From the NCBI GenBank assembly GCA_020723345.1, contig DYJA01000003.1, positions 145,050 through 191,006 on the forward strand: a DNA stretch of 45,957 nt, written 5' to 3'. Within the stretch, counting starts at the first letter, position 1. Every line of letters starts with the position of its first letter. The position numbers and the translations under genes were made by a program. The notes below the pieces were generated by a model that worked only from the letters and a program-made list of their open reading frames with translations, was not told where the DNA came from and searched no databases. Below are positions 6,880 to 24,419 of the stretch, in pieces. Source of the DNA: Candidatus Aquidulcis sp. GTDB taxonomy: Bacteria > Chloroflexota > Anaerolineae > UBA4142.

Positions 6880-8286
6880 GTGAATATTGATAAAATCGTT
6901 TTGATTTATCCCGAGCGCGATGGACGCATCTTTGGCAGGGCGCAAGGTTCGCCGTACACTTTGATGCGCCTCGCGTCGTTGGTGCCAGAAGATATTCCAG
7001 TCGAAATTTGGGACGAAGACTTGCGCGCGTTGCCGATGGAACGTCTGGGTCCGCGCGATCTCGTTGGCATCACGAGCAAAACGCTGTCGATTGAGCACGC
7101 GAAGGAAATTGGCGTCGCCGCGCGACAACGCGGCAGTCTCGTCGTGGTCGGCGGCACGCACGCCACATTGGTACCGGACGAAGTGAAGCAGTGGGCGGAT
7201 ATTACCGTCGTCGGCGAAGCGTATCATACCTGGGATCAAATCATTCGCGATGTTGCGAACGACACGGCGAAACAAATGTACGTCGACGAATCGTGGTCGC
7301 CGCTCGGCGGAGTGGCGCGCCTGACCGATCGCGTGCTCGCAATGGTCGACGAACGCCGGCATTATTGGACGCCGTACCTCGAAATTACGCGCGGCTGTCC
7401 GCGCGATTGCACGTTTTGTACCGCGATTCGCGTCAGCGGCAAGATCATGCGCCATCGTCCGATTGACGAAGTGGTCGAAGAAATTCAGCGGCGGCGCGTC
7501 AAACGTTTCTTTTTGACCGACGATAATTTCGGTTTGAATTTTCGAACGAGTCCGAATTACATCGTCCAACTTTTCGACGCGCTCGCCAAACTAAACTTGA
7601 ATGGCTGGACCGCCCAAGCCGAAATGATGGTCGGCAATTTCCCGGAACTGCTCGCGCTCGCGCGGCGCGCACATCTCGAGAAACTGTTCATCGGCTTTGA
7701 ATCGATCAACACGTCGAACGGACGCGACCTGGGCGGCAAGAGCAAAGGCAACACCGCCGAGTACAAGCGCGTCATCAACGCGATTCACGATCACGGCATC
7801 GGCGTCGTGGGGCTTTTCGTGCTCGGACTCGACGGCGATCAGCCCGACGTTTTCGAGACGACCTGGGATTTCGTCCGCCAGAGCAAATTGGATGCAGTAA
7901 GTTTTACGATCATGACGCCCTATCCCGGCACCGAATTGCGCCGCGAGTACGAAGAGCAAGAACGTTTGCTGCCAAATATGCCGTGGAGCAAGTACGATAC
8001 CGCGCACGTCGTCTTTCAACCCGCGCAAATGTCGGTCGCGCAATTGCGGCGCGGCTATGATTGGATCTGCAACCGCGCGTACAGTTCGATGTCGATTGCG
8101 CGGCGCGGCGTCCACGCGTTGCGCCGCCAGCCGCTGCTGCAATATCAACGCCGGGTCTTTTCGAGTTTCAGTACCGATGTCGGGTACCGCAAAGCAGTCA
8201 GTTATCGCGAACGCGAACCGGATTTTCAATGGCGGACACCCGCGCAGTTGACTCAAACGCCTGCCGCGAATTCGATCAAAGGATGA
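6880..8286 (+). CDS. B12-binding-type radical SAM protein
   Basis: 468 residues from a GTG start preceded by GAGGAG. The N-terminal ~150 residues form a cobalamin-binding-like Rossmann domain (VVVGGTHATL, VVGEA) without an obvious DxHxxG cobalt-ligand motif. The radical SAM core begins with CPRDCTFC (Cys173, 177, 180) and continues through LTDDNFG, GFESIN and VLGLDG strands; FTIMTPYPGT near the end is typical of the class. These enzymes methylate or rearrange unactivated carbons, for example in lipid, hopanoid or antibiotic pathways. The specific reaction is unknown. The glycosyltransferase gene starts 6 bases downstream, so the pair is likely an operon. Confidence 0.85.
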   Translation: MNIDKIVLIYPERDGRIFGRAQGSPYTLMRLASLVPEDIPVEIWDEDLRALPMERLGPRDLVGITSKTLSIEHAKEIGVAARQRGSLVVVGGTHATLVPDEVKQWADITVVGEAYHTWDQIIRDVANDTAKQMYVDESWSPLGGVARLTDRVLAMVDERRHYWTPYLEITRGCPRDCTFCTAIRVSGKIMRHRPIDEVVEEIQRRRVKRFFLTDDNFGLNFRTSPNYIVQLFDALAKLNLNGWTAQAEMMVGNFPELLALARRAHLEKLFIGFESINTSNGRDLGGKSKGNTAEYKRVINAIHDHGIGVVGLFVLGLDGDQPDVFETTWDFVRQSKLDAVSFTIMTPYPGTELRREYEEQERLLPNMPWSKYDTAHVVFQPAQMSVAQLRRGYDWICNRAYSSMSIARRGVHALRRQPLLQYQRRVFSSFSTDVGYRKAVSYREREPDFQWRTPAQLTQTPAANSIKG

Positions 8287-8292
8287 TAACGG

Positions 8293-8952
8293 ATGCGACT
8301 GTCTGTGCTACTGCCGATTTACAACGAAGAGCGCGAACTTGCCGCGTGCCTCGACCGCGTGCTGGCGTCGATTGCCGATGAGATCATCGCGGTGGACGAT
8401 TGCTCGACGGATGCGACGCCGCAAATTCTCGCGCGCTATCGCGATCCGCGCTTGCGCGTGGTGCGCCACGCGCAAAATTGCGGCAAAGGCAGCGGCATCC
8501 GCACCGCGCTCGAGCACGCGACCGGCGAGTACTGCATCATCCAGGACGCCGACACGGAATACGATCCGCGTGATTTTCCCAAACTGCTCGAACCGATCCG
8601 GCAGGGACGCGCGCAAGTGATCTACGGCGCGCGCGATCTCAGCACCCAGCCGCTCATCGGATACCTCGGCAATAAATTCTTGACGATTGCGACGAACATT
8701 CTGTGCGGCACGCGCCTCAGCGATATGGAAACGTGCTACAAAGTCGTCCCGACCGCGCTGCTGCACGAACTTGGTTTGCAATCGTGCGGTTTCGAGATCG
8801 AGCCAGAGATCACGGCGAAAATCGCCAAGCGCGGCATCCAGATCGGCGAAGTGCCGGTGACGTACGCGCCGCGCCCAGATAAAAAGTTGCGGCGGTTTCG
8901 CGATGGGTTTCGGTCGCTGTTCGCGCTGATTCGCTATCGGTTTGCGGCGTGA
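8293..8952 (+). CDS. Family 2 glycosyltransferase
   Basis: 219 residues of GT-A fold. LLPIYNE opens the nucleotide-sugar domain, VDDCSTDATP gives the first acidic pair and QDADTEYDP the metal-binding DxD. The protein resembles dolichyl/undecaprenyl-phosphate sugar transferases of the short, soluble DPM1 type, with no C-terminal membrane segments. It probably transfers a hexose from a nucleotide sugar to a polyprenyl phosphate or lipid at the cytoplasmic face. It follows the B12 radical SAM gene by 6 bases. Repeats and a new promoter follow, so the operon appears to end here. Confidence 0.85.
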   Translation: MRLSVLLPIYNEERELAACLDRVLASIADEIIAVDDCSTDATPQILARYRDPRLRVVRHAQNCGKGSGIRTALEHATGEYCIIQDADTEYDPRDFPKLLEPIRQGRAQVIYGARDLSTQPLIGYLGNKFLTIATNILCGTRLSDMETCYKVVPTALLHELGLQSCGFEIEPEITAKIAKRGIQIGEVPVTYAPRPDKKLRRFRDGFRSLFALIRYRFAA

Positions 8953-8968
8953 GGCGTGAAACGTGAGG

Positions 8969-9010
8969 CGTGTTGCATGTTGCGTAACGGAACACGCAGC
9001 ACGCAACACG
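8969..9010. repeat. Imperfect 17-bp inverted repeat of CAACACG heptamers
   Basis: CGTGTTGCATGTTGCGT at 8969-8985 pairs with 8994-9010 at 15 of 17 positions. The same word composition (GTGTTGCGTGTTCCG) makes the perfect palindrome at 26181-26226. Confidence 0.65.
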
Positions 9011-9065
9011 TCCTAATTTCTCCAAATCTTTTTATAGAATTAGGCGCGCGGTGCAGCGCGGCTAA

Positions 9066-9094
9066 TTGACTAAGCCGTGCCAGAATGGTATAAT
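9066..9094 (+). promoter_or_regulatory. Strong sigma70-type promoter
   Basis: TTGACT at 9066-9071, 17-base spacer, TATAAT at 9089-9094. It drives the radical SAM gene that starts at 9180. Its presence shows that the longer reading frame beginning inside the -35 box is not the real protein start. Confidence 0.75.
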
Positions 9095-9113
9095 ATCGCC
9101 GTCAACGCTCCAA

Positions 9114-9166
9114 TCCTTCGACTACGCTCAGGACAAGTCTCCAATCTCTAATCTCTATTCTCCCTC
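9114..9166. repeat. Dispersed TCCTTCGA repeat plus TCTCTAA heptamer run in a 5' leader
   Basis: 9114-9133 is a copy of the TCCTTCGACTACGCTCAGGA family. It is followed at 9137-9166 by four near-copies of a heptamer (TCTCCAA, TCTCTAA, TCTCTAT, TCTCCCT). Both lie in the untranslated leader between promoter and start codon. Confidence 0.6.
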
Positions 9167-9179
9167 ACGAGGTTTACAT

Positions 9180-10676
9180 TTGCGCGTCTTGCTGATCAAT
9201 CCACGCTTTCAACTTCCCATCGATACCCGCACGACCCCGCATCTCGGCATCGCGTATCTCGCGGCAGTCAGCGAGCGACGCGGCGACGAGGTGCGCGTTT
9301 TCGATATGGACGTCGAGGACATCAAGTTAGCCGATTTCGCGCGCGAATATCAACCCGACATCGTCGGGATCACAAGCAACACGCCGCAGGTCAAACAGGG
9401 CTGGCACGCCGCGCGCGAGATCAAATCGGCGCTCGACGCGCTGATCGTGCAAGGTGGTCCACACGTTTCCGCGCTGCCGGAGGAATCCGCGTCGCGCGAA
9501 GAGATCGACATCGTCGCACGCGGGGAAGGCGAAGATACTTGGATCGACTTGCGCAACACACTCGAACGCGTTAAGACGAGCGATCCCAAATTCAAAACGC
9601 GCGATCTGCTCGATCCCGCGAGCCAGATCCTCGATGGCGTTCTCGGCATCACGTACCAAACCACCGACGGCAAGATTCAGCACACGCCCGAACGTCCCGC
9701 TATCGCGGATTTGGACACGCTGCCGTTTCCCGCGTACAAATATTTCAAGATGGAGCGGTACACCTCGCTCCAACCGGCGATTGATGCAATCGAGATGGGC
9801 AAATCGTACAGCATTATGACTTCGCGTGGCTGCCCGTATCGCTGTACGTTTTGTTCGCAAAGCGTGATGGCGGAAAGATGGCGCGCACGTTCCGCGAAAA
9901 ATGTCGTCAAGGAATGGCGACACCTGATCGATGACTTGGGCGCGCAGGAAATCGGCGTGCTCGACGATTCGGCGAACATCAATCGCGACCGCGTGCACGA
10001 ATTGTGCGATTTGCTAATCGCGGAGAAACTAAACCACGTTCCCTGGATTCCGATCAACGGCATTCGCGCGAATCTCGCCGACGAGGATTTGCTGCGGCAC
10101 ATGAAAGCTGCGGGGTGCATCCGCGTCGCGTTCGGCGTCGAGACCGGCGACGAGGAAATTCTAAAGTCCATCGACAAGCGCGTGACGCACGATCAGATTC
10201 GCACGGCGTTCAAGAACGCGAAAAAAGTTGGCATTGAAACGGTCGGCTTTTTCATCATCGGCTTGCCGGGCGATAACGAAGCGACGATGGAAAAGACGAT
10301 TCGCTTGGCGTGCGAACTCGATCCGCTCGTCGCGAATTTTTCGATGCTGACGCCGTACCCCGGCACGCAAGTGTGGGAACAAGTGCATCGCAACGGCGGT
10401 CGGATGTTGGTCAAGGATTGGGAAGATTACGTTTTCTTCGAGAGCAAGGCGCGGTACGAAATCGGTGAGACGACGGCGGAATTGCAAGAACGCAAATGGA
10501 AAGAGGCGTACCGCCGCTTTTATCTGCGCCCGCATCGAATCGCGATGACGCTGCTGCGAAAATCAACGTGGCAGCATTTTCCGCGCACACTGCGAATGGC
10601 GCTCAAGATCGTCTTGCCGAAGAAAACGAAAGATGAAGTGAAAGCAGTTGTCGAAGAGACACCAACGGCATTCTGA
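9180..10676 (+). CDS. B12-binding-type radical SAM protein (paralogue of 21015-22475)
   Basis: 498 residues from TTG at 9180, chosen because GAGG lies 9 bases upstream, the protein then begins RVLLINPR as its relatives do, and the promoter sits at 9066-9094. N-terminal cobalamin-binding-like domain (about 1-150; VGITSNTP, VQGGPHVS, VARGEGE); radical SAM core with CPYRCTFC (Cys218, 222, 225), GVLDDS, FGVETGDEEIL and TPYPGTQVW. It shares long colinear blocks with the protein at 21015-22475, including FKNAKK, EATMEKT and YRRFY, so the two are tandem paralogues. The substrate is unknown; a lipid or glycan modification is plausible from context. Confidence 0.87.
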   Translation: MRVLLINPRFQLPIDTRTTPHLGIAYLAAVSERRGDEVRVFDMDVEDIKLADFAREYQPDIVGITSNTPQVKQGWHAAREIKSALDALIVQGGPHVSALPEESASREEIDIVARGEGEDTWIDLRNTLERVKTSDPKFKTRDLLDPASQILDGVLGITYQTTDGKIQHTPERPAIADLDTLPFPAYKYFKMERYTSLQPAIDAIEMGKSYSIMTSRGCPYRCTFCSQSVMAERWRARSAKNVVKEWRHLIDDLGAQEIGVLDDSANINRDRVHELCDLLIAEKLNHVPWIPINGIRANLADEDLLRHMKAAGCIRVAFGVETGDEEILKSIDKRVTHDQIRTAFKNAKKVGIETVGFFIIGLPGDNEATMEKTIRLACELDPLVANFSMLTPYPGTQVWEQVHRNGGRMLVKDWEDYVFFESKARYEIGETTAELQERKWKEAYRRFYLRPHRIAMTLLRKSTWQHFPRTLRMALKIVLPKKTKDEVKAVVEETPTAF

Positions 10677-10690
10677 AAGGTGGACGTGTT

Positions 10691-10924
10691 ATGAGCAATC
10701 TACTTGATCGGATCACGATCGATCCGCAAATCTGTCACGGCAAACCGGTGATTCGCGGTTTGCGCTATCCAGTCGAAACAATGTTGGAACTGATGAGCGC
10801 CGGAATGACAATTGACGAGATCCTCGCAGATTACGAGGATTTGGAGCGTGAGGACTTGCTGGCAGTGCTTGCGTTCGCCACGCGCTTGAGCCAAGTCAAG
10901 CGCATGGACCCGGTCGCAGTATGA
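10691..10924 (+). CDS. DUF433 protein, probable antitoxin
   Basis: 77 residues of the DUF433 family, recognised by RITIDPQICHGKPVIRG near the N-terminus and the helix-turn-helix-like segment SAGMTIDEILADYEDLE. Such proteins pair with PIN-fold toxins and are thought to bind and repress their own promoter. Its stop overlaps the start of the next gene by four bases (ATGA), the usual antitoxin-first order. AAGGTGGACG precedes the start. Confidence 0.8.
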   Translation: MSNLLDRITIDPQICHGKPVIRGLRYPVETMLELMSAGMTIDEILADYEDLEREDLLAVLAFATRLSQVKRMDPVAV

Positions 10925-11274
10925 ACTTTTTGGTAGACGCGCAACTACCGCGCCGTTTGGCAAATCGCCTGTGCGACTCCGGGCACTCCGCAACGCATAC
11001 GTTTGACTTGCCAAGTAAAAACCGGACAACCGATGTTGAGATCGGCGAAATCTCAACGCGGGAACAGCGCGTCGTCATCACAAAAGATGCTGACTTTGTG
11101 GACACGTTTCTGCTTATCGGCAAGCCCTACAAACTGTTGCTCATTTCGACAGGGAATATCTCAAACGCCGATCTGGAAACATTTTTCGTTCCACAGATTC
11201 CAGTCATCGTCTCCGCATTTGAAACGTATGACTATATCGAATTGACTCGGACCGCATTGGTGTTTCACGTATGA
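10921..11274 (+). CDS. DUF5615 PIN-like protein, probable toxin
   Basis: 117 residues. MNFLVDAQLPRRLA supplies the first acidic residue and ITKDADFVD the second acidic cluster of the PIN-like DUF5615 (Mut7-C-related) fold. Such proteins are candidate ribonuclease toxins. It is translated from an ATGA overlap with the DUF433 gene. The pair separates the second radical SAM gene from the AOR block and has no functional link to either that I can see. Confidence 0.8.
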   Translation: MNFLVDAQLPRRLANRLCDSGHSATHTFDLPSKNRTTDVEIGEISTREQRVVITKDADFVDTFLLIGKPYKLLLISTGNISNADLETFFVPQIPVIVSAFETYDYIELTRTALVFHV

Positions 11275-11295
11275 TGGATCCCATCTGACTTGATT

Positions 11296-11520
11296 ATGCC
11301 TGCCTACATTCGCCCCATCGGCGTGCTCAAGAGTTACATCGGCGACAAGCCGGAAGCGGTTGTGGAACCCGGACGCACGCTGCGCGCAACCATCGCGGAA
11401 TTGGGTATTCCGGTTGATAAAGTCGCGATGGTTCTCGTCAACGACGCGCCGCAGCCCAAAGACTATGTTCTGCAAGACGGCGACATCGCGCGCTTGATCA
11501 TGGCGGTGAGCGGGGGGTAG
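11296..11520 (+). CDS. MoaD/ThiS-like ubiquitin-fold sulfur carrier
   Basis: 74 residues starting MPAYIRPIG; an in-frame TTG six bases earlier is a weaker start. The beta-grasp pattern is clear (VLVNDAPQPKDYVLQDGDIARLIMAVSGG) and the protein ends in Gly-Gly, the C-terminus needed for adenylation and thiocarboxylation. In AOR operons such proteins supply sulfur for the tungsten or molybdenum pterin. The TAG stop immediately after the second Gly is part of the GTAGGGGCGAAG repeat end. First gene of the ferredoxin-AOR-DUF4914 block. Confidence 0.82.
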   Translation: MPAYIRPIGVLKSYIGDKPEAVVEPGRTLRATIAELGIPVDKVAMVLVNDAPQPKDYVLQDGDIARLIMAVSGG

Positions 11521-11615: not shown

Positions 11616-12074
11616 ATGAAGATACTCGCAGTAAAACCTGAACTGTGTAATGGCTGCGGCGCGTGCGAGGAAATCTGCGCCAAAACTTTTTTCAAGGTCA
11701 CCGACCGCGACAAATCAACGATTCGAGTCGCACAGATCGCGGAAGGAAAATATCGCGTCGACTTTTGTAATCAGTGCGGCGAGTGCATCGCGGTCTGCCC
11801 GACGCAAGCGCTTTATCGGATCAAGAATGGCATCGTGCGCATTCGCGAAAAAGATTGCGTCGGTTGCGAGGCGTGCATTGGTTTTTGTCCCGATTTGGTG
11901 ATGTACGCTGTGCCGGACGACGTCGTTCCGATCAAATGCATCGCGTGCGGCAAATGCGTTGACGTGTGCCCAACCAAGGCGTTGTTTATGGCTGAGGTTG
12001 ATGTGCCCGCGCCGGTTACAGAACTGACGCGCTCGATTCGTGTCAAAACAGGAGCAGGTTCCCATGGCAATTGA
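11616..12074 (+). CDS. Poly-[4Fe-4S] ferredoxin subunit of the AOR
   Basis: 152 residues with four ferredoxin cysteine sets: CNGCGACEEIC, CNQCGECIAVCP, CVGCEACIGFCP and CIACGKCVDVCP, enough for up to four [4Fe-4S] clusters. It resembles the electron-transfer subunit encoded beside many aldehyde ferredoxin oxidoreductases and would pass electrons between the AOR active-site subunit and soluble ferredoxin or another oxidoreductase. AGGGGAGACA precedes the start. It overlaps the AOR start by 11 bases, indicating translational coupling. Confidence 0.88.
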   Translation: MKILAVKPELCNGCGACEEICAKTFFKVTDRDKSTIRVAQIAEGKYRVDFCNQCGECIAVCPTQALYRIKNGIVRIREKDCVGCEACIGFCPDLVMYAVPDDVVPIKCIACGKCVDVCPTKALFMAEVDVPAPVTELTRSIRVKTGAGSHGN

Positions 12075-14244
12075 CGTTCAGAAAATGAAAGCGATGCGCG
12101 CCGCGCACAAAGTCTTGGCGGAATTTACGTACCCGCCGCGTGAAGTTGTCAAAGGGTACGCGAATCAAACGCTCTACATCAATCTCGACACGAACACGAT
12201 CGAGGCAAAGCCGGTCACGCGGATGATGAAAGATATTTTTATCGGCGGGCGCGGTTTTGGAATTTGGCATCTCTGGAATGCGGTCACGCCGCAAACCAAA
12301 TGGAATAGCCCGGAGAACGCGATCATCATTTCGCCCGGACCGCTCGCGGGGACGACAAACTTTCCCGGGTCGGGCAAATCGCTCGTCGTCACGATCTCGC
12401 CGCTGACGAGCGCGCCGGTCGACAGCAATGTGGGCGGCTACTTTGGTCCGCTGCTCAAGTTCGCGGGCTGGGACGCGATCGAGATCCAAGGCAAAGCGAA
12501 GAACGACGTGATCGTTTTCATCGACGGGAACCAAGGACGCATCACGATTGAAGAAGCGCCGGGCGCGTCGGTCGATAGTTATCCAGTCGGTGAAGAAGTG
12601 GTCGCGATGTTCGCGGACACGGACGCGGAAAAGCGCGATGTGTCGAGCGTCAGCGCGGGCACGGGCGCGGATCACGCGCTCTTTGGCTGCCTCAATTTCA
12701 GTTGGTACGATACGCGTCGTCAGCGCGTCCGACTCAAGCAAGCCGGGCGCGGTGGCATTGGCACAGTTTTCCGCGACAAAAAGATCAAGGCGCTCGTCGT
12801 CAAGAAATCCGGTGTGAATGCCGAGTCCAATCATCCCGACGACGCGCGACGCATTCGCGATGTCGGCGTCAAGATGCACCGCGAGTTGCACGATCTCGAT
12901 CATCTGCAATGCCACATGCGAACCGTCGGCACCGCGCACCTGGTCGAGATCATGGACGCGACCGATTTGCTGCCGACGTGCAATTACAAATTCGGATCGC
13001 ACTCCGAAGCCAAACATCTTTTCTCCGATTATTACCTGAAGACATTTTCGCAGAACACAGTCGACGGCTGCTGGTACGGCTGCACGATGGCTTGCTCGAA
13101 AGGCATGGACGGTTTCGAGTTACGGACGGGTCCGTACAAAGGACAAATCGTCACCGTGGACGGTCCCGAGTACGAGACGATTGCCGGATGCGGTTCCAAC
13201 CTGGGTGTGTTCGATCCGCACTGGGTTGGCGAGTACAATTATTACTGCGACACGTACGGTCTCGACACGATCACCTGGGGCACGGCGATGGCTTTCGTGA
13301 TGGAGTGTTACGAAGCCGGCATCTTGAACAAGCAAATCACCGGCGGTTTGGAATTGAAATTCGGCGCGGCGGAAGCGGCGGCGGAGTTGCTCCACCAAAC
13401 CGCGCGCGGCGAAGGATTCGGGCGCGTCTTTGGGTTGGGCGTTCGGCGGATGAAAGAAATTTTCGCGAAAGAGTACGGCGGCGATCCAAAATTCCTGCAA
13501 GACATCGGCATGGAATCCAAAGGGCTTGAATATTCCGAGTACGTCACGAAAGAATCGCTCGCGATGCAAGGCGGCTACGGTCTCACGTTGAAAGGTCCGC
13601 AGCACGACGAAGCGTGGCTGATTTTCATGGATATGGTTCACAACCAGATTCCGACTTTTGAAAACAAAGCCGAAGCGCTGCACTATTTTCCGATGTGGCG
13701 CACCTGGTTCGGTCTCAATGGTTTGTGCAAAGTGATTTGGAACGATATCGAACCGGCGGATAACGCGCAGACTAAAGAACCCGCCAAAGTGCCGGAGCAC
13801 GTCGACAACTACGTCGAATATTTCACCGGCGTGACGGGCAATCGGGTGACCAAGGAAGATTTGATTGTGATGTCGGAGCGCGTGTACAATTTCCAACGCG
13901 TCTTCAATCTCAAGATGGGCTTCGGTCGCCGCGCACACGACGCGATTCCGTATCGCTCGATGGGACCGGTGACGAAGGAAGAATACGAGTCGCGCGCGGA
14001 GCGGTACGACAAACAGTTGCGCGAAAAAGTCGGCTACGATCCCACCGGCAAGTCGACCGAAGAAAAGTTGGCGGCGCTGCGCGCGTTCCGCGAGGCGGAG
14101 TATCAGCGACTGTCGGACGCGGTTTACCAACGGCGCGGCTGGACGAACGACGGCGTACCCAAAATCGAAAAACTGAAAGAACTGGGAATTGATTTTCCCG
14201 ACGTGGTTGAGGTTGTTCGTCCGTATCAGAATGGAAACAAATAA
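12064..14244 (+). CDS. Aldehyde ferredoxin oxidoreductase family tungsten/molybdenum enzyme
   Basis: 726 residues from the ATG at 12064, chosen over 12040 because AGGAGCAGG lies just before it. Domain order is AOR-N (IGGRGFGIWHL, ISPGPLAGT) followed by the AOR domains. The cluster ligands appear as CWYGCTMAC (Cys336, 340, 344) and Cys555 in NGLCKVIW. This first set is C-X3-C-X3-C, not the C-X2-C-X3-C of the archaeal prototype. The enzyme interconverts aldehydes and carboxylic acids with a bis-pterin W or Mo cofactor. The real substrate is uncertain, since the family also contains glyceraldehyde-3-phosphate and benzoyl-CoA reductase members. Co-transcribed with sulfur-carrier and ferredoxin genes. 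Confidence 0.9.
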   Translation: MAIDVQKMKAMRAAHKVLAEFTYPPREVVKGYANQTLYINLDTNTIEAKPVTRMMKDIFIGGRGFGIWHLWNAVTPQTKWNSPENAIIISPGPLAGTTNFPGSGKSLVVTISPLTSAPVDSNVGGYFGPLLKFAGWDAIEIQGKAKNDVIVFIDGNQGRITIEEAPGASVDSYPVGEEVVAMFADTDAEKRDVSSVSAGTGADHALFGCLNFSWYDTRRQRVRLKQAGRGGIGTVFRDKKIKALVVKKSGVNAESNHPDDARRIRDVGVKMHRELHDLDHLQCHMRTVGTAHLVEIMDATDLLPTCNYKFGSHSEAKHLFSDYYLKTFSQNTVDGCWYGCTMACSKGMDGFELRTGPYKGQIVTVDGPEYETIAGCGSNLGVFDPHWVGEYNYYCDTYGLDTITWGTAMAFVMECYEAGILNKQITGGLELKFGAAEAAAELLHQTARGEGFGRVFGLGVRRMKEIFAKEYGGDPKFLQDIGMESKGLEYSEYVTKESLAMQGGYGLTLKGPQHDEAWLIFMDMVHNQIPTFENKAEALHYFPMWRTWFGLNGLCKVIWNDIEPADNAQTKEPAKVPEHVDNYVEYFTGVTGNRVTKEDLIVMSERVYNFQRVFNLKMGFGRRAHDAIPYRSMGPVTKEEYESRAERYDKQLREKVGYDPTGKSTEEKLAALRAFREAEYQRLSDAVYQRRGWTNDGVPKIEKLKELGIDFPDVVEVVRPYQNGNK

Positions 14245-14411: not shown

Positions 14412-16280
14412 ATGAACTGGACAAAGTACAATCCGCCCGACCACGCGCGTGAAATCCTGTCACAATGTCCCCAGGTGACAGTCGCAAATTCTACGGAAGA
14501 ACTCGTCGCGTTGGCGTGTGGTGAGCAAGCGAACAAATCGTTCGAGGTCGCGTACGATGTGCCCGGCAAAGGGCGCTGCGTCGAAGCGGTCGTGACGCGC
14601 GTGCGGAACGGCTTGGCAGTCAACTATGCCGAGCCGTACATGCGCCGGCGCGATCCGGATTGCGTTTTTATCGGCGACAATTTGCCGACGGACAAGGAGA
14701 CTTTTTCGCAGCACTTTAATCGCGATTTCGCGTCCGTCCGCGCGGAAGCGTTTGCGTGGCTCAAGACTCAGGAACTGTTGATCTTCGGTTTTGTCGCAGG
14801 ACAACCGGACATGGGAATCGAAGCGCTGGCAATCGTGCCGGCGAACGCGGCATTTTTTGCGTTTGGTTTGGCGATGCTGCAAGGTTTCATCCCGGTCGAG
14901 AAAATATCGCCCGCCTTTGCGCCGCGCGCGGTGATTTACGTCGCGCCGGTTTTTCGGCACACGCATTTCGGCGGCAAGCAAGTCGTCGTGCATAATCGCC
15001 AGCCCGACGCGTACGAAATGTTTTCGTTCAATTTGTATCCGGGTCCCAGCGCGAAAAAAGGCGTCTACGGAATGTTGCTCGACCTGGGTGAGCGCGAGGG
15101 CTGGGTCACGACGCATTGCTCGACCGTGCAGGTCATCACGCCGTACGACAACGTGGTGACGATCATGCACGAAGGTCCCAGCGGCAGCGGCAAAAGCGAA
15201 ATGCTGGAACAGCCGCACCGCGAATCCGATGGACGACTGCTCCTCGGCGAAAATCTCGTGACCGGCGAAAAGCGTTATCTCGAAATTCCGCGCACGTGCG
15301 AGTTGGGTCCGGTCACCGATGACATGGCGTTGTGTCATCCATCGCTGCAAGACAACAGCGGACGACTGCGACTGCGCGACGCGGAAGACGCGTGGTTCGT
15401 GCGCGTCAATCACATTAACAGTTACGGTACCGATACTTCGTTCGAACGATTGACCGCGCAACCAAGCACGCCGCTGCTCTTCTTGAACATCGACGCGGTG
15501 CCGAACGGGCGCGCGCTGATTTGGGAACACACGCTCGATGCGCCGAACAAGCCGTGTCCGAATCCGCGCGTCGTCATTCCGCGTTCGATTGTGCCGGGCG
15601 TCGTCGATGGCGCGGTGACAATCGACATTCGCAGTTTCGGCGTGCGGACTCCGCCGTGTACCAAAGAGAATCCGAGTTACGGCATCATCGGCATTTTTCA
15701 CATTCTGCCGCCCGCGCTCGCATGGTTGTGGCGACTCGTCTCGCCGCGCGGCTACGCCAATCCCAGCATCATCGACGAAGAAGGAATGGAAAGCGAGGGC
15801 GTCGGTTCGTACTGGCCCTTTGCGACGGGGCAGCGCGTCGCGCAAGCGAATCTGCTCTTGCAGCAATTCACGACACACAAACGCACGCGCCATATTCTCT
15901 GTCCGAATCAGCACATCGGCGCGTGGCGCGTCGGCTTTATGCCGCAGTGGATCGCGCGCGAATATTTTGGGCGGCGCGGCGTCGTCCGATTTCGCCCCGA
16001 TCAAATTCGACCGACGCGCTGTCCGTTGCTGGGATACACGCTGCATCAATTACACGTCGAAGGGCATTTGATCGCACGCTGGTTTTTGCAAGTCAACACG
16101 CAGCCCGAAGTCGGCGACGAGGCGTACGATCGCGGCGCGGAAATGCTGTACGGTTTCTTTCGCCGCTATCTGCCCGATTTTCTGAAAAGCGATCTCGCGC
16201 CGCTCGGCAAGTACATCGTGCGTTGTTGTCTCGACGGCGGCGGCTTGGAAGATTACGAAGCGCTGATTCCGCTGGAATGA
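14412..16280 (+). CDS. DUF4914 protein with PEP-carboxykinase-like P-loop
   Basis: 622 residues, which I place in DUF4914 from memory of the family. A P-loop, GPSGSGKSE, occupies residues 255-263 and is followed by TDDMAL and VNHINSYGTD, an order resembling the kinase-1 and kinase-2 motifs of ATP-dependent PEP carboxykinase and HPr kinase. The rest has no motif I can name. It follows AOR by 167 bases on the same strand and may be part of that operon; GAGGGG precedes the ATG. A nucleotide-dependent kinase or carboxykinase acting on an AOR substrate or product is my inference. No biochemical role is established to my knowledge. Confidence 0.75.
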   Translation: MNWTKYNPPDHAREILSQCPQVTVANSTEELVALACGEQANKSFEVAYDVPGKGRCVEAVVTRVRNGLAVNYAEPYMRRRDPDCVFIGDNLPTDKETFSQHFNRDFASVRAEAFAWLKTQELLIFGFVAGQPDMGIEALAIVPANAAFFAFGLAMLQGFIPVEKISPAFAPRAVIYVAPVFRHTHFGGKQVVVHNRQPDAYEMFSFNLYPGPSAKKGVYGMLLDLGEREGWVTTHCSTVQVITPYDNVVTIMHEGPSGSGKSEMLEQPHRESDGRLLLGENLVTGEKRYLEIPRTCELGPVTDDMALCHPSLQDNSGRLRLRDAEDAWFVRVNHINSYGTDTSFERLTAQPSTPLLFLNIDAVPNGRALIWEHTLDAPNKPCPNPRVVIPRSIVPGVVDGAVTIDIRSFGVRTPPCTKENPSYGIIGIFHILPPALAWLWRLVSPRGYANPSIIDEEGMESEGVGSYWPFATGQRVAQANLLLQQFTTHKRTRHILCPNQHIGAWRVGFMPQWIAREYFGRRGVVRFRPDQIRPTRCPLLGYTLHQLHVEGHLIARWFLQVNTQPEVGDEAYDRGAEMLYGFFRRYLPDFLKSDLAPLGKYIVRCCLDGGGLEDYEALIPLE

Positions 16281-18157: not shown

Positions 18158-18413
18158 CAATCCGCGAATCGTTGACGTCAAGGTAACTGACGAATCCATC
18201 ATCGCATATCTTACAGACGGACGCACGATTAGCGTCCCGCTCGCGTGGTCGTGGCGTCTGTCGGAAGCAACACCGGAACAGCGGAATCATTTTGAGATCA
18301 TCGGGACGGGACAAGGCGTCCATTGGCCCGATATCGACGAAGACATTAGCGCGAACGGAATGCTTTGCGGAATTCCGGCGCGCCCGCGTAAACTTGCGAT
18401 GGCGACGACTTAA
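18138..18413 (+). CDS. DUF2442 small protein, partner of DUF4160
   Basis: 91 residues. DVKVTDESIIAYLTDGRTIS followed by VPLAWSWRL and HWPDIDEDIS is the DUF2442 signature. Frame overlap with the DUF4160 gene indicates translational coupling. It ends two bases before the next radical SAM start, so that gene may be read from the same transcript. Confidence 0.82.
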   Translation: MSIVVNDNPRIVDVKVTDESIIAYLTDGRTISVPLAWSWRLSEATPEQRNHFEIIGTGQGVHWPDIDEDISANGMLCGIPARPRKLAMATT

Positions 18414-18414
18414 A

Positions 18415-19773
18415 ATGAAACGACTCTGGCTCGACCTCGGAGACCTCGGCGTGTTTGTGCGACCGGCGGGCGCGCACGATCGCTGGCAGGATCACGGCTT
18501 GGGGCTACTCCGCACGATTCTGAAAAATAATAACATCGAAACCGATTTGTTTTCGACGCGCGCGATTCGTTCGTTCGACGAGTTGGGTAAATACGTCGCG
18601 GGCTACGACGTTTTGGTGATGAACGTTCGCAGTTACACGTACCCGTTCGCGTATCACGCCGCGAAAATCTTCAAGCGCGTCAATCCGCGCGGCGCTGTCA
18701 TCACCGGCGGAATGCACGCGACCGTCGCGCCAGACGAAATGGAAACGGTCGCCGAGTTTGATCATATTTGCCAAGGTCCGGGCGAAAACATCATCGTGGA
18801 CTTGCTGCGCGACCCGCGCGCGTTCCCACGAATGGTCACCGGCGTCGGCGCGAAATCCATGTCGGATTGGCTCCCGATGGATCGCACGCTGTGGCCCAAC
18901 CCCAACCTCGCCGATTTTCCGTGGCCCCTGGAACCGGAATGTGGCTGGGGTCCCGGTCCTGTCGCGACGATTCTGACGAGCCGCGTCTGTCCGTGGCAGT
19001 GCGTCTTTTGTAATGAGTCGTCGTACATTCCGAACATGGGACGCAAGTCGGTCGATCAGGTGATTGACGAACTAAACTTTCTCGATGACAAGTACGGACC
19101 AATCGGTTCCGTCGTCATTCACGATTCGATGTTTTTCCAGCATCCGGCGTGGCTGAAAGAGTGGCTCGAAAAATATCCGCGCAAAGCGCACAAACGCTGG
19201 GGCTATTGGGCGGCGGGACGCTCCGACACGGTGCGCCAGTGGCCCGAGTTGTTCGAAGCGCTCGTGCGCGAAACGAATTGGAATCACGTCTCGCTCGGAT
19301 TCGAGTCTGGCAGCGACCGCGTGCTGAAAATTCTCAACAAAGAATGTACCGCCGAAGACAATTACGTCGCGATTGATCTGCTCAACAAAATCGGCGACGA
19401 CTTGGAAGCGCGCGGCTACATCCCGCCGAAATTCTGGGCGAACATCATGCTCGGCATTCCCGGCGAGACGCGCGAAGATGCGTTCGACACGATTCGCATG
19501 TTAAAGCGGATGAAGCGCGTCCTCCCTTCGATTTCGTACTACGCGCCGTACCCCGGCTCCGCGCTCGGCTATCAACTCATCGCGGAAAACAAGAGCCGGA
19601 TGTCGAAAGAAAATTATCATCGCTATCCCGACGACAAAAAAGTCAAAGGGATTGATTACGGCTTTTACCAAAAACTTTTACGCGGCAAATTCGACCGCGA
19701 AGTGAACGCGGGCTTGCCGCAATTCTTGCGCGGCAAATCCGGCGTGTACGCCGATTCGCTAATCAAAGCATAG
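18415..19773 (+). CDS. B12-binding-type radical SAM protein
   Basis: 452 residues from ATG at 18415; the longer frame would run through the DUF2442 gene. N-terminal cobalamin-binding-like domain (VLVMNVRSY, VITGGMHATVAP, HICQGPGEN), then the radical SAM core with CPWQCVFC (Cys192, 196, 199), IHDSMFF, LGFESGSDRVLKI and YYAPYPGS. It is more distant from the 9180 and 21015 proteins than those two are from each other. The reaction is unknown. The neighbouring small gene at 19873 follows after an array of short repeats. Confidence 0.85.
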   Translation: MKRLWLDLGDLGVFVRPAGAHDRWQDHGLGLLRTILKNNNIETDLFSTRAIRSFDELGKYVAGYDVLVMNVRSYTYPFAYHAAKIFKRVNPRGAVITGGMHATVAPDEMETVAEFDHICQGPGENIIVDLLRDPRAFPRMVTGVGAKSMSDWLPMDRTLWPNPNLADFPWPLEPECGWGPGPVATILTSRVCPWQCVFCNESSYIPNMGRKSVDQVIDELNFLDDKYGPIGSVVIHDSMFFQHPAWLKEWLEKYPRKAHKRWGYWAAGRSDTVRQWPELFEALVRETNWNHVSLGFESGSDRVLKILNKECTAEDNYVAIDLLNKIGDDLEARGYIPPKFWANIMLGIPGETREDAFDTIRMLKRMKRVLPSISYYAPYPGSALGYQLIAENKSRMSKENYHRYPDDKKVKGIDYGFYQKLLRGKFDREVNAGLPQFLRGKSGVYADSLIKA

Positions 19774-19782
19774 TTCAGGCAA

Positions 19783-19862
19783 TCAGTGATCGGGCAATCA
19801 GTGATCGGGCAATCAGGCAATCAGTTGATCAGTTGACCGATTGACCGATTGACCGATCGCCA
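19783..19862. repeat. Array of short repeats (GCAATCAGTGATCGG, then TTGACCGA)
   Basis: CAATCAGTGATCGGG occurs twice and degrades into CAATCAGGCAATCAG, TTGATCAG and three copies of TTGACCGA with an 8-base period. It lies in a 99-base gap and ends just before the small gene at 19873. Confidence 0.65.
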
Positions 19863-19872
19863 CAAAAGCACA

Positions 19873-20079
19873 ATGAGCAGCTTCAACAATCCCCACCACT
19901 TTTTTCTCTTTGCGATGAAGAACGGCAAAAAGAAACTCGCGTACGGCACGACGGCGGAGGACGCGTACAACAATCTTCAACTGCGTCTCACGCCGAAGGA
20001 AATGGAGTTGATCATCAAGGATCAGTGTCTCCGTTTTCCGCAGCGTGAATTGCAAAAGCACGTCCGCGAACTTGGCTAA
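19873..20079 (+). CDS. Small hypothetical protein
   Basis: 68 residues, start set at ATG 19873 because the upstream in-frame start lies in the repeat array. Basic and aromatic at the N-terminus (NNPHHFFLFAMKNGKKKLAYG), then a helical stretch (TAEDAYNNLQLRLTPKEMELI). No family recognised and no Shine-Dalgarno that I can see. A hairpin terminator follows. Coding is plausible because the frame is open and the residue pattern is protein-like. Confidence 0.5.
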   Translation: MSSFNNPHHFFLFAMKNGKKKLAYGTTAEDAYNNLQLRLTPKEMELIIKDQCLRFPQRELQKHVRELG

Positions 20080-20101
20080 TCGCTGATTGAGTCTGGCATC
20101 G

Positions 20102-20147
20102 AGGCGAGGCGATCCTGAGCGCAGTCGAAGGGAGTCCTCGCCTTTTG
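20102..20147 (+). terminator. Hairpin terminator containing a TCCTGAGCG repeat
   Basis: AGGCGAGG at 20102-20109 pairs with CCTCGCCT at 20136-20143, followed by a T run. The loop holds a copy of the TCCTGAGCGCAGTCGAAGG dispersed repeat. Confidence 0.55.
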
Positions 20148-20189
20148 TTTTCCTCTGTGTTCTCTGTGAACTCTGTGGCTGAATCGCGA

Positions 20190-20218
20190 TTGACCGATGT
20201 ACAGGCGCGGTGTATAAT
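20190..20218 (+). promoter_or_regulatory. Strong sigma70-type promoter of the vapBC-like operon
   Basis: TTGACC at 20190-20195, 17-base spacer, TATAAT at 20213-20218, 25 bases before the antitoxin ATG. It probably also transcribes the overlapping radical SAM gene downstream. Confidence 0.75.
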
Positions 20219-20243
20219 CGCTTTGCAGGAAGGGAGGTGTGCG

Positions 20244-20606
20244 ATGGCGAAAATCAAAGAGACAAAAACGACATACTCTGCTGAACCGATTACCGTCGTC
20301 ACCACGCGCGGCACGACGGAAATTCCGCGCGTGCTACGCGAGCGTTATCGCGTCACCGCGAAATCGCGTTTGCGTTGGACGGATACGGGGCGCGGGCTGC
20401 TTGTCGTGCCACTTGAAAAGCGAATCACGCCGGAGCGCGCACAACCCCAACCCACCGAGAAAAAAGCAAAGACGAGTGACCGCGAATTTCTGGCATGGCT
20501 CGATGAATGGATGAAAGAACCAGACGATTGGACTCCCGAGCAGTGGGACGCGTTTGAACAGGAACTCCGCGCGAATCGCGTCAAATTTCGAGACATTGAG
20601 ATATGA
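20244..20606 (+). CDS. AbrB/SpoVT-like antitoxin (VapB type)
   Basis: 120 residues from ATG at 20244 with GGGAGG upstream. The N-terminal half (ITVVTTRGTTEIPRVLRERY, then LRWTDTGRGLLVVPL) matches a swapped-hairpin AbrB DNA-binding domain. The C-terminal half (FLAWLDEWMKEPDDW) would wrap the toxin. Such antitoxins neutralise VapC and repress their own promoter, here at 20190-20218. Four-base overlap with the PIN gene. Confidence 0.8.
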   Translation: MAKIKETKTTYSAEPITVVTTRGTTEIPRVLRERYRVTAKSRLRWTDTGRGLLVVPLEKRITPERAQPQPTEKKAKTSDREFLAWLDEWMKEPDDWTPEQWDAFEQELRANRVKFRDIEI

Positions 20607-21010
20607 CCGCGTATCTACTCGATACCAATATCATCTCGGCTCTCTTGAAGAAACAAGATGCAGCAGAGCGTCGTTTGCGCGAAACAGTCGCGATGAAAGA
20701 GATGGTGTTCCTTTCGGCGGTTGTTCACTACGAAGCCAGGCGCGGGCTTTTGAAACGCGACGCGAAGAATCAGATGCAAGCCCTGGAGCATCTGGTCGCG
20801 CGATTTGAGTGGTGTGATGTGTTGCCTGCCGACTGGGAATTGGCCGCGCGGTTGTGGGTTGAACGGACGAAGATCGGCAAACCCATCGAAGACGCCGATG
20901 TGCTGATCGCCGCGCAAGCCAAACGCCTCGGCGCGATTCTAGTGACCGACAACGAAAAGGATTTTGAAAACTTGGGTGTGAAAATCGAGAACTGGAAAGA
21001 TGGTCAATAG
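20603..21010 (+). CDS. vapC: PIN-domain ribonuclease toxin (VapC family)
   Basis: 135 residues. The acidic active-site residues of the PIN fold are in place: YLLDTNIIS, VVHYEARRG, PIEDADVLIAA and LVTDNEKDF. VapC toxins cleave RNA, often tRNA, in the cytoplasm until bound by VapB. Starts inside the antitoxin stop (ATGA) and ends within the first codons of the radical SAM frame, so all three may be co-translated. Confidence 0.87.
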   Translation: MTAYLLDTNIISALLKKQDAAERRLRETVAMKEMVFLSAVVHYEARRGLLKRDAKNQMQALEHLVARFEWCDVLPADWELAARLWVERTKIGKPIEDADVLIAAQAKRLGAILVTDNEKDFENLGVKIENWKDGQ

Positions 21011-21014
21011 CCCG

Positions 21015-22475
21015 ATGAGAATTTTGCTCGTTTCCCCCGATTCCAAAGTGTGGAACTCGCGCGCGCACATCCACAACGGCTTGGGTTATCTCGCCGGTGC
21101 GCTCTTGGCGAACGGATATCCGGACGTAACGTTGCACGATGGCGCAGTCGAAGATCAATCCGTCGCGCAAGTACTCGATCGCGCACGCGCGGAGAGCCGC
21201 GCGTACGACGTCGTCGGCGTTTCCGCGCCGACCGTGCTGATCGAAAACGCGTGGGCGACCGCGCGCGACGCGCACGCGCGCGGCGCGATCACGATCCTGG
21301 GCGGACCCCACCTCACGCTTCAGCCCGACGAGTCCATCCAAAAGCCCGAAGTGGATCTCGTCGTGCGCGGCGAGGGCGAGGAGACGATTGTTGAAATTCT
21401 GCGCGTGCTGGGGAAAGTCAACAGTCAACAGTCAACAGTCAACAGTCCGGAGTTGGCGAACATCCTTGGCTTGTCGTGGCGTACTGTTGATGGACGCGTG
21501 ATGCACAATCTGGATCGCCCATTGCGATCCGATCTCGACAACATTCCGCTGCCCGCGTATCATCTGTTCAAGATCGAACGCTACACCAACTTGCAGCCGC
21601 TCACCGACGGACTCGATCCGCACGCGCGCGCGTACACCATCGTCACTTCGCGCGGCTGTCCGTACAAATGCACGTACTGCTCCAAGCCAATCACGGGCGA
21701 TACGTGGCGCGGGCGCTCGGTGGAGAACGTCATCACAGAATGGCAGATGCTCGTCCAGGATTTTCGCGCGACGGAAATCGGTATCACGGACGACATTTGG
21801 AATCTCGATCTCAAACGCGCGAAGGAATTGTGCCGCGCGCTGATCGACGAAAAACTGAATACGGTTCCGTGGGTCACGATTCACGGCATGAAAGTGAATC
21901 ACACCGATCTCGAATTGTTTGAGTTGATGAAGAAGGCGGGCTGCAAGCGCGTCGGCTTCGGCGTGGAAAGCGGCGATGAGTACATCTTGAAACGCGTCGT
22001 CAAAAAATCGCAGACGATGGAGCAAGTTCGCGCCGCGTTCAAGAATGCGAAAGCCGCGCGCTTGCAAACGATGGGCTTTTTCATCTATGGGATGCCCGGC
22101 GAAACCGAAGCGACGATGGAAAAGACGACGCAACTCGCGCTCGAACTCGATCCCGATCTGGCGAATTTTATGATCGCCGCGCCGTTTCCCGGAACGGAAC
22201 TGTGGAAACTCGTCGAGAAGCAAGGCATCCTCTTTTCGCATACCTGGGACGACTACGCGATTCATTCCGACAAGGCGCATTTCCAAGTCGGCGACCTGAC
22301 CGCCGAACTCGTCGAGCGCAAGTGGCACGAGGCGTACCGCCGCTTTTATTTCCGCCCGTCGCGCCTGGCGCGCCGCTTGCTGATGCGCGATACCTGGCTC
22401 AACGCGCCACAGCGCGCGCACGACGCGCTCCGTTTTTTCCGTGGCGCGAACGCGCGCGCGGGCGCGCATGGATGA
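21015..22475 (+). CDS. B12-binding-type radical SAM protein with in-frame heptamer repeat
   Basis: 486 residues from ATG at 21015 (MRILLVSPDS); another ATG at 21000 would overlap vapC and has no better ribosome site. Cobalamin-binding-like domain about 1-130, then an in-frame repeat peptide (residues 134-144), then the radical SAM core with CPYKCTYC (Cys215, 219, 222), GITDDIW, FGVESGDEYIL and APFPGTELW. It is a paralogue of the 9180 protein along its whole length. Where the repeat falls, the 9180 protein has an unrelated linker, which suggests a tolerant loop between domains. The substrate is unknown. Confidence 0.87.
   Translation: MRILLVSPDSKVWNSRAHIHNGLGYLAGALLANGYPDVTLHDGAVEDQSVAQVLDRARAESRAYDVVGVSAPTVLIENAWATARDAHARGAITILGGPHLTLQPDESIQKPEVDLVVRGEGEETIVEILRVLGKVNSQQSTVNSPELANILGLSWRTVDGRVMHNLDRPLRSDLDNIPLPAYHLFKIERYTNLQPLTDGLDPHARAYTIVTSRGCPYKCTYCSKPITGDTWRGRSVENVITEWQMLVQDFRATEIGITDDIWNLDLKRAKELCRALIDEKLNTVPWVTIHGMKVNHTDLELFELMKKAGCKRVGFGVESGDEYILKRVVKKSQTMEQVRAAFKNAKAARLQTMGFFIYGMPGETEATMEKTTQLALELDPDLANFMIAAPFPGTELWKLVEKQGILFSHTWDDYAIHSDKAHFQVGDLTAELVERKWHEAYRRFYFRPSRLARRLLMRDTWLNAPQRAHDALRFFRGANARAGAHG
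21416..21446. repeat. Perfect heptamer array (AGTCAAC)n, in frame inside a gene
   Basis: AGTCAAC repeats four times plus AGT, 31 bases. In the host frame it reads VNSQQSTVNS. Confidence 0.9.
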
Positions 22476-22483
22476 GGTGAAGG

Positions 22484-22834
22484 ATGACTGTCAATGAATT
22501 GGAAAAGAAAATTCGCACTCTTGAACGGCGGCTCGAAAAATTAGAACGCAGTTCGCGCCCCAAGAATGGACGTGTGACGCGAAAAAGACGCGCACGCCGA
22601 CAAGCGACCGCGCTGGCGCCAGAACGCGCTCAATCGTATACTGCGGAGGCGCAAAAGTCACTTGAGATTGCGCGACGCGCAGGTTTGTTGGTGGAATTGC
22701 CTCCCGAAGCCAAGCAACGCGCGGCAGAATGGCGCGCGCTGCCTGAAGAAGAGCGCCAGCACATTCTTGATGAATTCTCTAATTTGAAACTCGACAAATC
22801 ACTTTCAGACATCATCATCGAAAATCGGCGCTAA
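22484..22834 (+). CDS. Probable antitoxin with N-terminal coiled coil
   Basis: 116 residues. The first 22 are heptad-like (LEKKIRTLERRLEKLE), suggesting a coiled-coil dimeriser. A strongly basic segment follows (KNGRVTRKRRARRQ), then a helical C-terminal half. No family recognised. The position immediately upstream of a PIN gene with a 4-base gap, and its size, fit an antitoxin. Starts 8 bases after the radical SAM stop. Confidence 0.6.
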   Translation: MTVNELEKKIRTLERRLEKLERSSRPKNGRVTRKRRARRQATALAPERAQSYTAEAQKSLEIARRAGLLVELPPEAKQRAAEWRALPEEERQHILDEFSNLKLDKSLSDIIIENRR

Positions 22835-22838
22835 CGCT

Positions 22839-23330
22839 ATGGCAATCTACTATTTGGACTCGAGCGCGGTCGTCAAGTATTTTCATAGCGAGCCAGGGAG
22901 TGCGTGGGTCAGGCAAATCGTCAACGCGCGCGCGGACGACACCCGCCTGAATACGATTTATCTCGGCGCGGTCAGCATCGCCGAAGTGCCCGCCGCGCTG
23001 GCGATTCTGGAACGAAGTAACCGCATTGGAACGCGGGCGCGGAATTCGATGTATCGCGCGTTTTTTGACGCGCTCGAATCGGCTTGGCGATTGTTGCACG
23101 TCAGCGTAAATCTGTTCTATCAGGCGGCGGAATTGACCCAGCGTTACCCGCTCAAGGGATATGATGCGGTTCAACTGGTTCTCGCGCTAGATTTCGATAG
23201 ACACTTGCAAGCACAAGACCTCGCGCTCGTTTTCGTCAGCGGCGACGACAACCTCCTTCAAGCCGCGCAAGCCGAAGGACTCGCGACCGAAAATCCATTC
23301 GATCACCGTGATCTAGACAACCCGCAATAA
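22839..23330 (+). CDS. PIN-domain protein, probable ribonuclease toxin
   Basis: 163 residues. PIN acidic residues are visible in YYLDSSAVVKYF, SIAEVPAAL, GYDAVQLVLAL and VSGDDNLL. The type is that of solitary or VapC-like toxins; the partner is the coiled-coil protein just upstream. The stop codon abuts the ATG of the next radical SAM gene (TAAATG), which ties that enzyme to the toxin transcript. Confidence 0.83.
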   Translation: MAIYYLDSSAVVKYFHSEPGSAWVRQIVNARADDTRLNTIYLGAVSIAEVPAALAILERSNRIGTRARNSMYRAFFDALESAWRLLHVSVNLFYQAAELTQRYPLKGYDAVQLVLALDFDRHLQAQDLALVFVSGDDNLLQAAQAEGLATENPFDHRDLDNPQ

Positions 23331-24419
23331 ATGTTTTCCCTCCTCCCCAAAATCCCGCTTTACTGGTCGTTCTATCGTTTCGGCTTTCCGAAGTTGTTGC
23401 CGTTCAGCATCGTCGTCAGCGTTTCGTTTCGCTGCAACAGCAAATGCCGGACGTGCGATGTGTGGCGCAAACCGAACGACGACCTGACGCTCGCCGAATG
23501 GACGCGCGTCTTTCAACATATCGGCAAGCCGATCTATTTGACGTTCACCGGCGGCGAACCATTCCTCCGCAAAGACCTGCCTGAAATCGTTCTCGCTGCG
23601 TACGAACATTGCCGCCCCGAGTACATCACGATTCCGACGAACGGCATCTTGACCGAGCGCGTCCGTGACGGCGTCGCGAAAATTTGCGCGGGCGCGCCGC
23701 GCGCGCGGATCGGCATCAACCTTTCGCTCGATGGCATCGGCGTAGAGCACGACGACCTGCGCGGCGTCCCCGGCAACTGGGACAAGGCGATGGCGACGTG
23801 GCGCGCGCTCAACGAATTGAAACGCGAATACGCGAATCTCGTGCTGAGCATCCACACGGTCATCTCGCAATTCAACGTCGCGCGCTTTCGCGAAATCTAC
23901 GCGGGTTTGCAACCGCTCGCGCCCGATTCGTACATCACCGAAGTCGCGGAAGAGCGCGTCGAACTGGATACGGTCGGCAAAAACATCACGCCGCGCGCGC
24001 GCGATTACGCGCCGCTTGCCGATTTTCTGAGCGCGCACGCCCACGCGACGTCCGCGCGCGGTTTTGCGCGCATCACGCAATCGTTCCGCGCGCGGTATTA
24101 TCAATTCGCAAAGCGCGCGCTCGCCGAGCAACGCCAAATCATTCCTTGCTTTGCGGGCTGGGCAAGCGGGCACATCGCGCCGAACGGCGACGTGTGGTCG
24201 TGCTGCATCCGCGCCGAACCCATCGGCAATTTACGAATTACCAATTACGACTTGCGCCCGATCTGGTTCGAACAAATCGGCGCGCTGAAGAACTTGCGCC
24301 GCAGCATCGCGGCAGGCGAGTGCGCGTGCCCGATGGCAAACGCCGCGTACGCGAATATGCTGCTGCACCCGCCAACTCTGGTCCAAGTCGCACGCGAAGT
24401 GTTGACGCGACGCGTGTAG
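23331..24419 (+). CDS. Radical SAM/SPASM-type protein without B12 domain
   Basis: 362 residues. The radical SAM triad CNSKCRTC (Cys35, 39, 42) is near the N-terminus, followed by [17 protein letters not shown] and NLSLDG of the classical core. A C-terminal cysteine-containing region ([33 protein letters not shown]) resembles a SPASM or twitch auxiliary-cluster domain. Related enzymes modify peptides or small metabolites, including lipid-linked intermediates. In this position, beside a polyprenyl-phosphate sugar transferase and a methyltransferase, a role in cell-envelope chemistry is plausible. Starts directly after the PIN gene stop. Confidence 0.83.
24231..24251. repeat. Three heptamers TTACGAA/TTACCAA/TTACGAC in frame in a gene
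   Basis: Three near-identical heptamers in tandem. In the host frame they read about RITNYDL, between GNL and RPIW of the SPASM-like region. Confidence 0.55.

Follow-up and report, generated by a model that had tools for sequence, protein, structure and literature searches.

Genes at the DUF4914 locus

The window analysed here is a 45,957-nucleotide stretch of DNA from Candidatus Aquidulcis sp. (Chloroflexota, Anaerolineae). It contains a DUF4914 open reading frame whose position and length of 622 residues are those given by a previous sequence-only reading of the same DNA. The predicted protein matches Pfam family PF16260 with 1023.6 bits, covering profile positions 2-612 of 612. No NCBIfam model matched this reading frame, and a literature search for 'DUF4914' and 'PF16260' found neither name. 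Upstream lie the sulfur carrier, ferredoxin and aldehyde ferredoxin oxidoreductase (AOR) genes that had been recognized from the sequence.

11290..11520, + strand: ThiS/MoaD-like sulfur carrier, AOR neighbour
11616..12074, + strand: four-cluster 4Fe-4S ferredoxin, AOR neighbour
12040..14244, + strand: AOR (PF01314, PF02730), not judged part of the system
14412..16280, + strand: DUF4914 protein (PF16260), a full-length PEP carboxykinase (PEPCK)-fold enzyme as predicted by its AlphaFold2 model and PDB matches to ATP-, PPi- and GTP-PEPCK
30806-30878, - strand: tRNA gene (62.9 bits), the sole Rfam match in the window

The AOR gene ends ~167–168 bp before DUF4914 on the same strand. This gap carries an RBS-like GAGGGG before the ATG and no convincing terminator, and co-transcription of the two genes is therefore possible. 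Several radical-SAM-like genes flank the AOR region (6880-10676 and 18292-24419), of which 9066-10676 was confirmed as a B12-binding radical SAM protein. The window also holds small two-gene pairs that resemble toxin-antitoxin modules at 10691-11274, 20145-21010 and 22484-23330; the Pfam check covered the first of these (DUF433/DUF5615).

DUF4914 is predicted to adopt a complete PEPCK fold

An AlphaFold2 model of the DUF4914 protein, computed from an alignment of 40 relatives, reached a pLDDT of 91.3 and a pTM of 0.91. The best 50 Foldseek matches listed were all PEPCKs of the ATP, GTP or PPi type, one of these entries (9a4u) being a complex model that contains PCKA. A second structural alignment returned a Z-score of 30.3 over 488 residues for the ATP-PEPCK 2pc9, 29.7 over 577 of the 622 residues for the PPi-PEPCK 6k31 (TMq 0.71, 18% identity), and 26.2 over 527 residues for the GTP-PEPCK 2fah. 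While the first two Z-scores are tied, PPi-PEPCK covers the query most widely and gives the highest query-normalised TM-scores, mostly 0.71-0.72 versus 0.61-0.67 for the others. The predicted model, residues 1-622, thus follows the two-lobed PEPCK fold along its full length, with Z-scores of 25-30 over ~480-577 residues. Fold comparison with PEPCK had been proposed on the strength of the P-loop and associated motifs, which were attributed to either PEPCK or HPr kinase. The model matches PEPCKs end to end, well beyond the P-loop, so that the first attribution extends to the whole fold and the second reduces to a likeness of the P-loop string, the listed fold matches being PEPCKs.

The profile match to ATP-PEPCK provides evidence that is independent of the structural model. 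Because the global mode of hhalign was uninformative, the local mode was used together with controls. Against an ATP-PEPCK profile built from sequences of DUF4914-carrying genomes, DUF4914 scored 53.1 across residues 15-611, compared with at most 23.7 for 20 column shuffles and a reversed alignment; unrelated proteins scored no more than 23.0. The corresponding score against GTP-PEPCK was 38.6, with controls no higher than 27.4. Taken with the model, these alignments indicate that the PEPCK resemblance is real and spans the entire protein.

When the one DUF4914 sequence was searched against PDB chains, no match was found, and the family profile found only a weak ATP-PEPCK match (E 0.26). None of the 40 DUF4914 members compared reached the curated threshold of the ATP-PEPCK family PF01293, which six matched weakly (best E 0.0079), and none matched the GTP-PEPCK family PF00821 at E up to 10. 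DUF4914 is PEPCK-like by every structural criterion tested on the model, yet its sequence places it outside all three known PEPCK types. Between the same pairs of genomes, mean identity is 63% for DUF4914 versus 38-40% for PEPCK, which suggests that DUF4914 either evolves more slowly than PEPCK or owes its spread to more recent transfer.

Catalytic residues of PEPCK are invariant in DUF4914

Residue equivalences are sequence-based, taken from collinear profile alignments to ATP- and GTP-PEPCK. Functions of the matching PEPCK residues are established for the E. coli and rat enzymes. Conservation was counted in an alignment of 102 distinct relatives, in which 87 positions are invariant. All of the sites below lie on the + strand, and the assignments are those suggested by the alignments.

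14643..14651, +: R78-R79-R80, candidate substrate-carboxylate arginine(s), where ATP-PEPCK has R65 (E. coli numbering); the exact partner is a putative assignment
15054..15059, +: K215-K216, PEPCK KK pair including the Mn2+-ligand lysine; 102/102, aligned to GKKC of GTP-PEPCK
15114..15116, +: H235, PEPCK Mn2+-ligand histidine; 102/102, aligned to EHM (GTP-PEPCK) and HCS (ATP-PEPCK)
15168..15203, +: P-loop HEG(A/P)SGxGKSEM, residues 253-264, aligned to the PEPCK P-loop
15318..15323, +: D303-D304, PEPCK kinase-2 aspartates, metal ligands; 102/102, aligned to GDDIA of GTP-PEPCK
15561..15569, +: N384-P385-R386, HPNARF motif (rat N403/R405); 102/102, profile alignment
15645..15647, +: R412, phosphate-binding arginine of FGGRR (rat R436); 102/102, profile alignment
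15732..15821, +: residues 441-470, the lowest-confidence part of the model (pLDDT block means 75, 57, 76), at the position of the mobile PEPCK omega-loop lid
15906..15962, +: residues 499-517, NQxxGAWxxGFMPQWxxRE, at the site of the ATP-PEPCK adenine pocket; profile alignment

The three motifs from which the sequence-only reading started are all present: GPSGSGKSE at residues 255-263, TDDMAL at 302-307 and VNHINSYGTD at 332-341. They are no accident of one protein, as every one of the 102 relatives carries S257, G258, G260, K261, S262, E263, D303 and D304. The same holds for H253 and E254 at the start of the P-loop, where K261-S262 pairs with the Lys-Thr of PEPCK in the profile alignment. R78 and R80 occur in 102/102 relatives, and R79 in 101/102. 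Residues 441-470 align with the SETTAA lid of GTP-PEPCK and include an invariant E462-G463-V464-G465, while Q500, G503, W513 and R516 are invariant at the adenine-pocket site. As judged by alignment, the Lys, His and Asp of the metal site, the P-loop Lys-Ser/Thr and the substrate arginines all have counterparts in DUF4914 that are invariant in 102/102.

Some gene neighbourhoods point to the PEP-oxaloacetate-citrate region

No universal neighbour of DUF4914 was found across ~110 loci. Most neighbourhoods lack a central-carbon gene, and each operon type is restricted to one or two lineages. The neighbours that do recur are genes of the PEP-oxaloacetate-citrate region. Citrate synthase adjacency was seen at two loci, L032 and L041. 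At the first (L032:7162-11236), an IclR regulator, DUF4914 and citrate synthase follow one another, with aconitase and an isocitrate-type dehydrogenase divergent; at the second (L041:2107-6300), the same three genes precede proB (glutamate 5-kinase). Two flavobacteria (L079, L083) carry the run DASS/CitMHS transporter, DUF4914, ATP-PEPCK and phosphofructokinase, the last being the 438-aa neighbour at L079:11727-13040, and L118 has the same DASS/CitMHS run but without PEPCK. At L157, DUF4914 is followed ~600 bp later by a same-strand PEPCK_ATP fragment (90 bits) that the contig end truncates, and at L147 a fragment of an isocitrate/isopropylmalate dehydrogenase (Iso_dh) lies directly upstream. 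We estimate the chance of PEPCK or citrate synthase standing beside any given gene to be of the order of 1/4,000 per neighbour. The ~110 loci show three adjacencies to PEPCK and two to citrate synthase, and these therefore exceed expectation, few as they are as independent events.

Other neighbours are confined to particular lineages. In Verrucomicrobia, regulators of ~300 aa lie divergently upstream of DUF4914 at six loci (L056, L065, L084, L085, L087, L092), with the PocR sensory and AraC DNA-binding domains present in at least five of the six; these regulators may sense the substrate or product of DUF4914. A family of 269-358 aa proteins is found just downstream in Verrucomicrobia and Thiohalocapsa (L022, L023, L065, L075, L086), and the one member scanned (L023:3947-4753) had no Pfam match. 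Several loci of one Anaerolineae family (L076, L146, L148, L151, L152) have a Mo hydroxylase of the xanthine-dehydrogenase/aldehyde-oxidase type (~1,000 aa) directly upstream; the Pfam check of its domains covered L148 and L076, which are one and the same locus. On an IMG/VR contig (L094), DUF4914 occupies one end, next to an integrase-like gene, and is therefore probably host sequence flanking a provirus.

Distribution and genome content

A genome scan recovered at least 577 DUF4914 loci, with Chloroflexota, Verrucomicrobia, Planctomycetes, Hydrogenedentes, Bacteroidota and Gammaproteobacteria among the groups represented, and with Thermotoga maritima, used as a control, also carrying the gene. 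The distribution is patchy. DUF4914 occurs in 7/400 Chloroflexota genomes, in 24/396 genomes of the window's class and, at the curated cut-off, in 2/249 of one flavobacterial family; it is absent from two other sampled species of the window's genus and from the other sampled members of its family.

Among 54 DUF4914 genomes, PEPCK_ATP scored above the cut-off in 20 and PEPCK_GTP in 29, together accounting for 48, and PEP carboxylase (PEPC) was present in 17. Since these 48 already possess an ATP- or GTP-PEPCK, DUF4914 is not a simple replacement, and strict replacement of PEPCK was rejected. Six of the 54, Dictyoglomus (G443), G042, G205, G418, G423 and G432, have neither PEPCK nor PEPC, although several DUF4914 carriers are incomplete metagenome-assembled genomes. 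Two Chloroflexota genomes are among those without these enzymes. Neither an ATP- or GTP-type PEPCK nor PEPC was detected in T. maritima. Within one Chloroflexota family (f37), two DUF4914 genomes lack PEPCK and three genomes without DUF4914 have it, an alternation that is suggestive in a tiny sample. The 6.3 Mb genome of the window itself holds 15 AOR-type genes as well as ATP-PEPCK, PEP carboxylase and DUF4914.

A probable fourth lineage of the PEPCK superfamily

The predicted fold, the collinear arrangement of the motifs, the invariance of the catalytic residues and the recurrent neighbours that make or use oxaloacetate lead us to consider DUF4914, with a probability of roughly 0.7, a fourth lineage of the PEPCK superfamily whose catalytic site is complete and whose most likely reaction is the interconversion of oxaloacetate with PEP + CO2. 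A complete set of catalytic residues on a relative of PEPCK suggests that the enzyme probably links these two metabolites. In such a reaction, a phosphoryl group would move between the substrate and a donor or acceptor held by the P-loop. The role is probably often carboxylating (anaplerotic), because DUF4914 is found in operons with citrate synthase and most of its hosts also have an ordinary PEPCK.

The most serious alternative is a PEPCK-fold enzyme that has shifted to another substrate, for instance a kinase or carboxykinase for a different 2-oxoacid. The fold has moved to other substrates in HPr kinase and other PEPCK-fold kinases. Such a shift would fit the low identity to PEPCKs (16-18%), the presence of PEPCK in most carriers and the invariant H194, R196, E263, R407, R441 and W513, which have no obvious PEPCK counterpart. 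However, the residues of the metal site have invariant counterparts in PEPCK alignments, as do the motifs on the substrate side, and citrate synthase and PEPCK are found among the neighbours. We regard a change of substrate as rather improbable.

The sequence-only reading had further cast DUF4914 as a partner of the tungsten/molybdenum AOR, phosphorylating or carboxylating its substrate or product. This is very unlikely. The short same-strand gap in the window speaks for such a partnership, as do the Mo hydroxylases directly upstream in several loci of one Anaerolineae family, but linkage to AOR is not conserved. No counterpart of the window's AOR was found near DUF4914 at ~86 other loci, and of 20 further Anaerolineae loci one (L150) had a distant AOR (27% identity) ~5 kb away, so that adjacency was seen in this window only. 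When co-occurrence was examined across genomes, AOR was present in 17/54 DUF4914 carriers, comprising 11/13 from the AOR-rich Chloroflexota versus 6/41 outside this phylum, and T. maritima has DUF4914 without AOR. The sampled relatives of the window's organism in the same genus and family lack DUF4914, as described above. With 15 AOR-type genes in the genome, a single adjacency carries little weight, and the tungsten AOR neighbour is most likely incidental. Least probable of all is that DUF4914 phosphorylates a protein in the manner of HPr kinase/phosphorylase. The GxSGxGKSE resemblance of the P-loop can be cited for this, but against it stand a PEPCK match over all 622 residues and top matches listed that are every one a PEPCK.

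The PEP-oxaloacetate step governs how carbon moves between glycolysis and the TCA cycle. If DUF4914 is indeed a fourth PEPCK lineage, present in several hundred genomes and annotated just as DUF4914, it would alter metabolic models of many anaerobes and environmental bacteria. Models of T. maritima would be affected as well, given that none of the searched PEPCK or PEP carboxylase families was found there.

The phosphoryl donor

In the profile alignment, the GKR of the ATP-PEPCK adenine pocket falls on G508-F509-M510. The K-R pair is absent (F in 101/102 relatives, M in 95/102), so ATP-type base recognition is not conserved. The guanine-clamp phenylalanines of GTP-PEPCK were not recognisable in DUF4914, the alignment being heavily gapped in this region. 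Our leading guess for the donor is PPi/Pi, given that no structural relative covers the model better than PPi-PEPCK and that DUF4914 lacks the adenine-pocket residues of the ATP type; a nucleotide bound in an unusual pocket is about as likely. Membrane pyrophosphatase was considered as a pointer to PPi metabolism and proved uninformative, its frequency of 51/54 in DUF4914 genomes being equalled by a background of 385/400 in Chloroflexota genomes. More speculatively, DUF4914 might be a compact, previously unrecognised PPi/Pi-dependent PEPCK of many phyla, which would convert PEP to oxaloacetate while storing energy as PPi, oppose the ordinary PEPCK in most hosts and, in T. maritima and Dictyoglomus, be the sole member of these families acting between PEP and oxaloacetate. 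We hold this fuller scenario to be rather doubtful. As a fourth PEPCK lineage, the family would show how the choice of phosphoryl donor (ATP, GTP, PPi) evolves on one fold.

Comparison with known systems

HPr kinase/phosphorylase has a P-loop string, GxSGxGKSE, like that of DUF4914. It differs in being a much smaller protein-kinase domain and is absent among the listed fold matches. GTP-PEPCK (PF00821; PDB 2fah, 3dt4) shares the collinear series SFxxxY...KK, GW..H, PSxxGK, DDxA, PNxR and FGxR with DUF4914, at 12-16% identity and with the weaker profile score of 38.6.

ATP-PEPCK (PF01293; PDB 2pc9, 1j3b, 1ayl) has the same KK, H, P-loop and R motifs, the highest Z-score (30.3, tied with PPi-PEPCK) and the top score in profile comparison, and is the only PEPCK type reached by the sequence profile search. 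Unlike DUF4914, it has a K-R adenine-pocket pair in place of F509-M510. It aligns over 488 residues, carries a different residue where E263 follows the P-loop Lys-Ser, and leaves DUF4914 below its Pfam threshold.

PPi-dependent PEPCK, or PEP carboxytransphosphorylase (EC 4.1.1.38; PDB 6k31, 8e1u), differs from DUF4914 in its length of ~1,100 residues with PPi-type insertions (1,109 in 6k31, versus 622). Identity between the two is 17-18%, and the DUF4914 profile misses the PPi type at the sequence level. In structure it nevertheless covers more of DUF4914 than the other types do, at 574-577 of 622 residues. Like DUF4914, PPi-PEPCK commonly coexists with an ordinary PEPCK, the presence of both in one genome being typical (PMC8100219).
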